From Chaetoderma sp. LZ-2023a (taxonomy: Eukaryota > Mollusca > Caudofoveata > Chaetodermatida > Chaetodermatidae): a stretch of DNA of 64,000 nucleotides. The position numbers were made by a program, and so were the translations under genes. The stretch lies in the NCBI GenBank assembly GCA_034401795.1, contig CM067367.1:33121733-33185732 (forward strand), read 5' to 3'. Every line of letters begins with the position of its first letter. Position 1 is the stretch's first letter. Under the pieces are notes generated by a model. That model had not been told where the DNA came from and did not search any database. It saw nothing but the letters and a program-made list of their open reading frames with translations. Positions 19,101 to 22,100 of the stretch are shown in pieces.

Positions 19101-22100
19101 TTCTTGTGTGGTTTTATCTAAAGTTATATACTGTGATTTTGATCAACATATTCTATGTAGTAGCTAGGCTATTAAATGAAAACAAAAAACACATGCACTT
19201 ACACATGCACACATGGTTGGCAGAACATAAATGATATAGGTATGAAGGAACAAAAGGATAATAGGCTTATTCTTAGTCCTTTGACCAACACACCTATAAT
19301 ATTCCATTAATATACTTCAATTAGAGAATATAAGTTAGTGAATAGAAGCCAAAATCTGCAATGACGGACACATGCCAGGGTGTATTTAATCACAAACCCA
19401 ATCACACACACCCACACTTTTGAATTTCACAAAGCAATGGGGGGGGGGAGCAGGAGGGGGAGACAATACTATAGAATACATACCAGTGGGCTTGTGTGAT
19501 TATTGCTTTGAGTTATCGTGATCGATTACTTAAGAATAATCACGATTACTCGATTAGTCAGCCTCAAAGATACATATAACAACAAAGGCATATTAGTGAC
19601 GAAAGCTGCAATGGTGTTTAGAAATATACATTCGCAGGCAAAGAGAAGTAAATTTTTCTGAAAATGTATCCCTGGAATGCCTGGCTTAATGCTCGAGTCA
19701 GTCATTCCAGTTATGCATTTTCAAAAATAGTCATCTCTTGGCCTACAAATAGACATACATTCTCTACGCAAGATGTCACTTTTGGTGACTGATCGCATTA
19801 AAGTTAAGAGTAATTAAAAGGTGTGTTTTGAAATATTATATGCAGTAGAAACTACATGTATTCATGATTATTCGATTAGTTAATCCGTACTCATATAAAT
19901 TAACGATTTAAAAAATAATCACAATTTTGGATTTAATCATGTGATCGTGAGAGCCTACGTACCAGTATGTTGTCTGGTTTGATGTCAGCATGTAAAATAC
20001 AGGCACGCTTTAGGAGCTTTAGAGAAAGCAGCAGCTGCTGAGCATAGGAGCGCACTGCTTTCACATGCAAGCCGATATCCTTGCCATATTTCTTCAGCAC
20101 TTCTCGCAGGTTCATACTGAAATTATACAATATAACAAGAACTTCAATCAGAGACTATTGACGTATGCATTCTTTTCAGATTGTAAAAGGTATTTATCAC
20201 AATCTTTTGACTGGCAGATCAAATTGTGATGCTCTTGGGGGTTATTTGATAGTTAGAAAATACTACAGAATTTTATCTTGTATTGATATATCACTGTTTG
20301 GAACAAATTGTCCAGAATAATCTACATAAAATAGATGATATCTCATTAGTATCTAATAAATACCTGAGTGACTCGAATACGAGGCAGAGATGTTGTTTGT
20401 GGAAGAAATGCCGGTTTAACCTCAAGCAATGGAACTTGTCATCTGGATCTAAATCATTCAGCTTTCGTAAGAATTCCAACTCTTTCAAGCCGGTCTTGTG
20501 CCTGCAAACAGTGAAAAATTCTATAAAGTTCATCTAGGAACTCCTACCAATAATACAGCATAATGTCAATTGAAAGGAACATATACCTTTTAACACTTGT
20601 ATCAGCCAAAACAGCTTCGACAGTGGTCTTGAGAAATCTCCATTTGCAGACCAAGAGAAGACTATTTTTTTTAATGTACCACTGGAATGACTGGCTCGGT
20701 TTCGACCCAGTCATTCCAGAGGTAAATTTTCAAAAACAATCTCTTCATCTGCAAATGAACATATTGTATGAGAATAATTGATATATTCTTGAACAAATGT
20801 GAGCATTCAATAGCTAATCTTTTGGATCCAAAAGGCAGAGGGGGGGGGGGGGGGGTGTCTTAGAGTAGGTTTGCCAACACAGTACAGCTCATAACTAAGT
20901 TAAAATGTTTCCAAAATAAAAACAACAAGAGGCTCAAGGGGCCTGTATCGCGGACCTGGAATTATTGGCCATTGGCACAACTGAACAAGATGAGATGACC
21001 ACTGGAAAAATTGACCAATCTAATTTCTCTGAAGAAGGTTTAGCCAAGATTAATTAAAATTGGCCCAGCGGTTAATAAGCAGTCTTTTTATGATTTTCTC
21101 AGAAATTTGCAGAAAATACATGTCCACCAAAAACACAAAATTTTGATTAATTCATGGCGGCCTTTTTTTTAATGTATAAACTTTCCATGTATAAACTTTC
21201 CATGTATAAACTTTCCATGTATAAACTTTCCATGTATAAACTTTCCATGTATAAACTTTCCATGTATAAACTTTCCATGTATAAACTTTAATGGTGCTTA
21301 GGCCCTAATAATATCTCTCCCAAATTTCGGCCGAATCCGTTCAGCGGTTCTGGAAGCTATTTTTGCGAAAACTAGGTCATCCACGATGGCCGCTGAAGCA
21401 TTTGGCCAATCAAGCTCCCTTAAACAAACTTGGTTCAGCCGTTACTCCAGATGATGTTTCCTGAGTTTTGAATCGATCCCTCATGCAGTTTCCGAGATTT
21501 TTAGACGTTTCTAAAAATCAGCCAAAATCCAAACTGGCCGATTGGCTTCGTTTAAACAAACTTAGATCCCTATGCCCTAAGGATGCTTCCTGCCAAATAT
21601 ACTTGAAATCAGCCAAGCATTTCTCGAAACGACATTAAAAATTTCCCATTGCTTTTGTATGGGAGTTTTTGGTGGGAAAAAGATCCAAGATGGCCACCAA
21701 ACCGTTTATCCGACAGTTTTGAAAATGAGAAATTTGAGATCAGAATACCCAAAAACCTATATAAAACCAATTTTGGCTTCAAAATCCATCAAATAAAACT
21801 ATGCAATATGACCGCCAACCATTTTGATTGGTCAACAGCGGCAAGGTTTTCTGATGGATCAACTTCCCGTGAACAAAGTTTAATGGCTCTTAAGACCAAT
21901 CATATCTACCAAATGTCAGGCCGATCCATTTAGCAGTTCTGGAGAAGTCGTTTTCGCGAAAAACTAAGCCATCTGGATGGCCGCCGAAGCATTTGGCCAA
22001 TCAAGTTCCCTTAAACAATATTGGTTCAGCCGTTACTCCAGATGATGTTTCATGAGTTTTGAATTGATCCCTCATGCAGACGTTTCTAAAAATCAGCCAA

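Follow-up and report, generated by a model that had tools for sequence, protein, structure and literature searches.

Probable duplication of a PRPF4B splice donor by a hAT-like insertion at an existing exon-intron border in Chaetoderma sp. LZ-2023a

Our analysis of 64,000 nucleotides from Chaetoderma sp. LZ-2023a (assembly GCA_034401795.1, contig CM067367.1, positions 33,121,733 to 33,185,732; hereafter the window) indicates that a hAT-like insertion duplicated a splice donor of PRPF4B at an existing exon-intron border, and that the donor next to the exon (the near donor) is intact and productive. We put the probability of this reading at about 0.9. The family of the element, its ends, the duplication and a reading frame that stays open across the near donor can be read directly from the genome. 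We infer that most splicing goes through the near donor, and that the insertion is nearly neutral and old.

Read on the minus strand, the kinase exon (20116-19963) ends in ...AACATACTG and is followed by GTACGTAGGCTCTC. The eight bases across this border recur on the far side of the element (Table 1). A preliminary description of the window had claimed this pair of octamers, the coordinates of the two donors, an element of 471 bp and a spacing of 479 nt, and all of these proved exact when read from the sequence, the donor G bases being at 19962 and 19483, a distance of 479. The octamers differ by a single mismatch, C in the near copy versus T in the far copy, in a CG/TG context. The same description had taken the T at +6 of the near donor to come from the end of the element, which was borne out: the first base of the element is T. 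The intron comprises 1936 bases, of which 471 belong to the element and 1452 separate the far octamer from the acceptor.

Table 1. Positions in the window of the PRPF4B exons, the duplicated donors and the hAT-like elements
Feature	Positions	Strand	Basis
PRPF4B kinase exon, MNLREV...DIKPDNIL, end ...ATACTG	19963..20116	-	51 residues aligned with human PRP4 kinase 6cnh_A 118-168, E 1.9e-23
Near target-duplication copy CTGGTACG, contains donor bases -3 to +5	19958..19965	-	read from sequence and family ends
Near donor GTACGT, with +6 T contributed by the element as its first base	19957..19962	-	CTG/GTACGT (slash, exon end) read from sequence
471-bp hAT-like element, non-autonomous; tip at 19957 TAGGCTCTC, tip at 19487 TGGGCTTGT, tip of the family TAGGCTTGC	19487..19957	-	family comparison
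Palindromic core of the element, common to a separate abundant palindromic repeat	19606..19756	.	sequence matches in window
Hypothetical 122-nt stop-containing exon, from element TTGCAG to far donor	19484..19605	-	sequence only, usage hypothetical
Far target-duplication copy CTGGTATG, 7/8 versus near copy	19479..19486	-	read from sequence and family ends
Far donor GTATGT, then original intron sequence	19478..19483	-	CTG/GTATGT read from sequence
PRPF4B exon that follows, [14 protein letters not shown]..., starting at 18026	17912..18026	-	exon join
Second, larger hAT-like element, related tips TAGGCTTCCACGATTA / CAGGCTTGCACAATTA, perfect 8-bp duplication CATGTCAT	36393..37255	+	window scan

The event that we propose would have begun with a short, non-autonomous hAT-like element landing on a pre-existing exon-intron border of PRPF4B, with donor positions -3 to +5 as its eight target bases. 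Before the insertion, a single CTGGTRYGTATTC site would be expected directly after the exon; the predicted empty site reads ...AACATACTGGTAYGTATTC..., with only one octamer and without the element. The 8-bp duplication would then have copied the donor, leaving one copy with the exon and the other with the intron, and the first base of the element, T, would have restored +6 and made the near donor whole from -3 to +6. Because +6 is T in both donors, the near donor would have lost nothing through this position. It would have stayed productive, with the element spliced out inside a longer intron. For illustration only, a calculation from some thousands of copies, about two hundred thousand donors (an assumed number) and three donor-sparing registers gives about two donor-preserving insertions by chance in a genome of 2.4 billion bases, so a tolerated case is to be expected now and then. 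The event is of an ordinary kind, in an unusual position.

The strongest evidence comes from the family of the element. We searched the assembly to which the window belongs (2.44 billion bases in 2753 contigs, the contigs C1 to C17 being 73-278 million bases each) with the 471-bp element. There were 8122 first-look candidates, and the best 40 of these were scored: the PRPF4B copy and 39 others at 77-80% identity, a non-random sample of the copies most like the query in a family that has subfamilies. Most alignments span base 3 to base 461-471 of the 471 query bases, and the 39 other copies are 456-479 bp long. The ends of these copies were set by the tip TAGGCTTGC, at most 8 bases from the aligned boundary and without use of the flanks. 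The preliminary description had staked its reading on family ends at 19487 and 19957. The family reads TAGGCTTGC at both ends, these ends map exactly to those two positions, and 34 of the 39 other copies have an 8-bp duplication that matches at seven or more of eight bases (19 perfect, 15 with one mismatch). In the remaining five, the duplication matches at 6, 3, 3, 2 and 2 of 8. In a control with the next eight bases outward, 7 or 8 matches were found in none of the 39. By arithmetic, the chance that random flanks match at 7/8 or better is about 6e-4, given ends fixed by the family and this base composition. Three copies (L033, L040 and L041), located on C15, C1892 and C417 (the latter two being small contigs), have the same tips and the same duplication, which suggests a single insertion represented on duplicated or haplotype contigs of the assembly. 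Treating the three as one insertion gives 32 of 37 copies at 7/8 or better.

The PRPF4B copy shares 85.2% identity with the family majority, the second lowest value of the 40; the 39 others range from 84.7 to 93.6%, and only one (L030) is lower. In a smaller set of 19 copies, the corresponding values were 83.2% versus 86.5-97.4%. Because the copy is the second most diverged of the 40, the insertion is probably old, and one change in the eight duplicated bases fits this age.

The element fits a non-autonomous hAT-like MITE: it has an 8-bp duplication and short inverted repeats with TAG tips, and it is present in high copy number. The preliminary description had called the insertion hAT-like, an assignment supported by the duplications (including the 7/8 match at PRPF4B) and the TAG tips of an element without coding capacity. 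Short terminal inverted repeats with a T/C-A-R tip are a hAT feature, and the family tips TAGGCTTGC have this form. The hAT tip rule is YARNG, with G at the fifth base; the fifth base of the family is C, not G, and the PRPF4B copy reads TAGGC and TGGGC. As in a MITE, the element is short, non-coding, uniform in length and abundant, the 8122 first-look matches being candidates and not copies. It contains no open reading frame of 150 aa or more; the longest stop-to-stop stretch on the minus strand has 64 codons (19720-19529).

The genome is rich in matches to the hAT transposase domain PF05699 (150 scored of 3339 candidates). At 30 transposase loci viewed with 1.5-kb flanks, there was no tip match of 13/16 or better. 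At 12 loci viewed over 1.2 kb downstream only, four had 12/16 tip matches (L087, L090, L095 and L096); at L087, the match is an inward-facing TAGGGCTGCGCGGTTT approximately 1 kb downstream. No clear case of a transposase with matching ends was seen at the 42 loci, which were viewed in part, with left ends mostly outside the coverage.

Within the window, the ends of the PRPF4B copy give a weaker signal. The two tips of this single copy agree at 8 of 14 positions. Compared as inverted repeats, the subterminal ends score 35 versus a shuffle mean of 20.6, a score reached by 5 of 1000 shuffles and by 18 of 1500 pairs taken from the window with matching geometry; in direct orientation the ends score 32 (reached by 10 of 1000 shuffles). 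The inverted signal is thus only modestly above the controls and little stronger than the direct one. A scan of the window for pairs of ends 80-1500 bp apart, with a duplication of at least 7/8 and tips agreeing at 9/14 or better including 4 of the first 5 bases, returned 197 pairs and missed the PRPF4B element because its tips are weak (8/14, with 9/14 required). BLAST at E 0.01 found no other copies of the element ends in the window, and an end-pattern search of the window with up to three mismatches gave seven matches, a number equalled in 3 of 100 shuffles. A tip scan of the window at 11/16 gave no more matches than simulated sequence (39-71 in 20 simulations) and is therefore uninformative. 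The family comparison, and not the PRPF4B copy alone, carries the case; the case from the window by itself is moderate.

The same pair scan yielded the second, larger element in Table 1, which was chosen by eye among five of the 197 pairs with hAT-like tips at both ends. A genome search with it gave at least 52 matching pieces from the best 40 of 1652 candidates. A third related hAT-like end, CAGGGTTGCACGATTT, lies at 54361-54453 and matches the end of the second element at 75.5% identity across 94 bp; a partner end was not convincingly found within 8 kb.

The palindromic core of the PRPF4B element recurs at 24 further places in the window (for example 12378-12565, 13175-13369, 18481-18694 and 62258-62472). 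Several copies of the palindromic repeat in the window are bounded by TTAACCCTTTAA-like ends, and these repeats may be piggyBac-like. We considered that the core might be a later insertion into the PRPF4B copy and rejected this, as matches run through the core in the other scored copies; the core therefore belonged to the element before it spread. Because the family carries a stretch resembling the core of the repeat, the hAT-like family seems to have captured part of the palindromic repeat and then to have spread with the captured part.

Other repeats are also present in the window. A 54-bp tandem repeat (32.8 copies, 94% match) occupies 44240-46004, where long open frames on both strands are probably artefacts of the repeat. 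A 29-bp tandem repeat at 37838-38330 (17 copies, 98% match) suggests recent growth of the array. Open frames at 50547-52214 resemble, as judged by eye, the endonuclease and reverse transcriptase of a LINE-type retrotransposon.

The gene itself points to the near donor as the productive one. Six exons (24153-24006, 20501-20364, 20116-19963, 18026-17912, 15555-15317 and 13133-12930), joined via the near donor, give an open frame of 331 aa up to a terminal stop. The product aligns without gaps at 331 of 331 positions with human PRP4K (4ian_A, 22-352; 604.6 bits, E 3.2e-181), and its other matches score lower: 345 and 339 for two chains named only as serine/threonine kinase, and 168 for HIPK2. The gene is, by best match over the whole kinase domain, PRPF4B (PRP4 kinase). 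A DNA search with the stretch 19966-20530, comprising two exons, the intervening intron and a bit of the next, found one place in the genome; an earlier query with the flank had been swamped by a repeat, and a diverged paralogue could escape a DNA search with a two-exon query. Given the open, gapless kinase from the six-exon join and the single genomic locus, productive splicing very probably uses the near donor. The original donor still suffices for the normal protein, and so the gene most likely works as it did before the insertion. The far donor yields [16 protein letters not shown], and translation in frame after NIL gives [13 protein letters not shown], as the preliminary description had it. 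The loss of the DFG half of the kinase, also part of that description, would be limited to transcripts that use the far donor, a use that is hypothetical.

The main alternative is that the far donor serves a sizeable share of transcripts, through a 479-nt extension of the exon or through the 122-nt stop-containing exon, and lowers or tunes PRPF4B via nonsense-mediated decay. The two donors are nearly equal in strength. With human donor weights, which give crude scores, the near donor has 3.29 and the far donor 3.65 bits (four other donors of the gene, 1.46 to 4.53), and predicted duplexes with U1 have -6.5 and -7.2 kcal/mol, making the far donor marginally stronger. In predicted folds of a piece of the pre-mRNA, the GT of the far donor is also the less paired (unpaired probability 0.63/0.73, versus 0.04/0.04 for the near donor and 0.02/0.08 for the reconstructed empty-site donor); this counts against a preference for the near donor, and we give it little weight. 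None of these comparisons favors the near donor, whereas the protein evidence does. Pairing of the two donors with each other as an RNA structure, which appeared in a fold of 526 nt (z -5.36), was rejected when 150 nt of context on each side brought the summed pairing to 0.018. The element also contains an acceptor-like TTGCAG (19611-19606), with an upstream pyrimidine content of 0.63, equal to that of five real acceptors of the gene out of six tested (the sixth has 0.74). Its CAG is kept in 24 of the 39 other copies and is CAA in ten, as counted among the five commonest forms, which cover 37 of the 39. Both far-donor products carry early stops, and inclusion of the 122-nt exon, whose usage is hypothetical, would be unproductive. 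Against substantial use of the far donor, three other GT sites in the intron outscore both donors by the same crude weights, so a good score does not imply use; and the far copy bears no sign of constraint, its one change in eight bases being about what we would expect given how far this copy has diverged from its family. We consider substantial use of the far donor unlikely. It is more doubtful still that the duplicated donor and the acceptor-like site make an element-borne poison exon that acts as a lineage-specific switch for unproductive splicing of PRPF4B. If it were so, and if other copies were alike, one MITE family could have seeded similar switches at every donor that its duplication happened to copy.

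Two further readings concern the insertion itself. The two CTGGTRYG octamers could be a chance match beside an unrelated repeat, and they do differ at one of eight bases, next to tips that agree at only 8/14 and inverted ends only modestly above controls. This is contradicted by family ends that fall exactly between the octamers and by the 34 of 39 other copies whose duplications match at 7/8 or better in the same register, and we regard it as extremely improbable. Equally hard to credit is an element that created the intron in the manner of an introner. In some introner families the target duplication of a DNA transposon provides a splice site (PMC9860276), as the donor inside the duplication does here. 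Introners make new introns, whereas the insertion at PRPF4B duplicated a donor at an intron border that was already in place. An introner is the whole intron, made by insertion into an exon; here the element accounts for only 471 of 1936 intron bases, and of the 1452 beyond the far octamer only approximately 18481-18694 was seen to resemble the palindromic core. Duplication of an existing donor remains our preferred reading, and the points against it, besides the donor scores and folds above, are the mismatch in the duplication, the divergence of both tips and the five of 39 family copies with duplications below 7/8.

Certain insertions of the maize hAT element Ds are spliced from transcripts, with the element and its 8-bp duplication taking part in the choice of donor. 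These insertions lie within exons and are recent mutations; in contrast, the insertion at PRPF4B lies on the border itself and is probably old. A literature search with broad terms returned no title on a hAT MITE duplicating an existing donor, and we make no claim that none exists. Among hAT MITEs, a close likeness is Mar of Drosophila willistoni, described in PMC3517528 as a hAT MITE that is short and non-coding, with short terminal inverted repeats, copies in or near genes, and 8-bp duplications that at times have one mismatch, all of which hold for the PRPF4B element. The tips of Mar, CAG(G/A)GGTAGGC, differ from those of the PRPF4B family. A preference for nnnTAnnn targets is reported for Mar and the Buster group in PMC3942097 and PMC3517528, which describe features of hAT MITEs; in the PRPF4B family it is at most weak, with T at position 4 in 15 and A at position 5 in 12 of 34 duplications.

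The insertion at PRPF4B is a natural example of an insertion at a donor that leaves a usable gene, because, through the duplication, the exon keeps a complete donor whose +6 is restored by the first base of the element. It yields a rule that can be tested genome-wide: donors should tolerate hAT-type insertions whose eight duplicated bases cover approximately -3 to +5. The two near-identical donors also form a natural pair in which to test the effect of position on donor choice.
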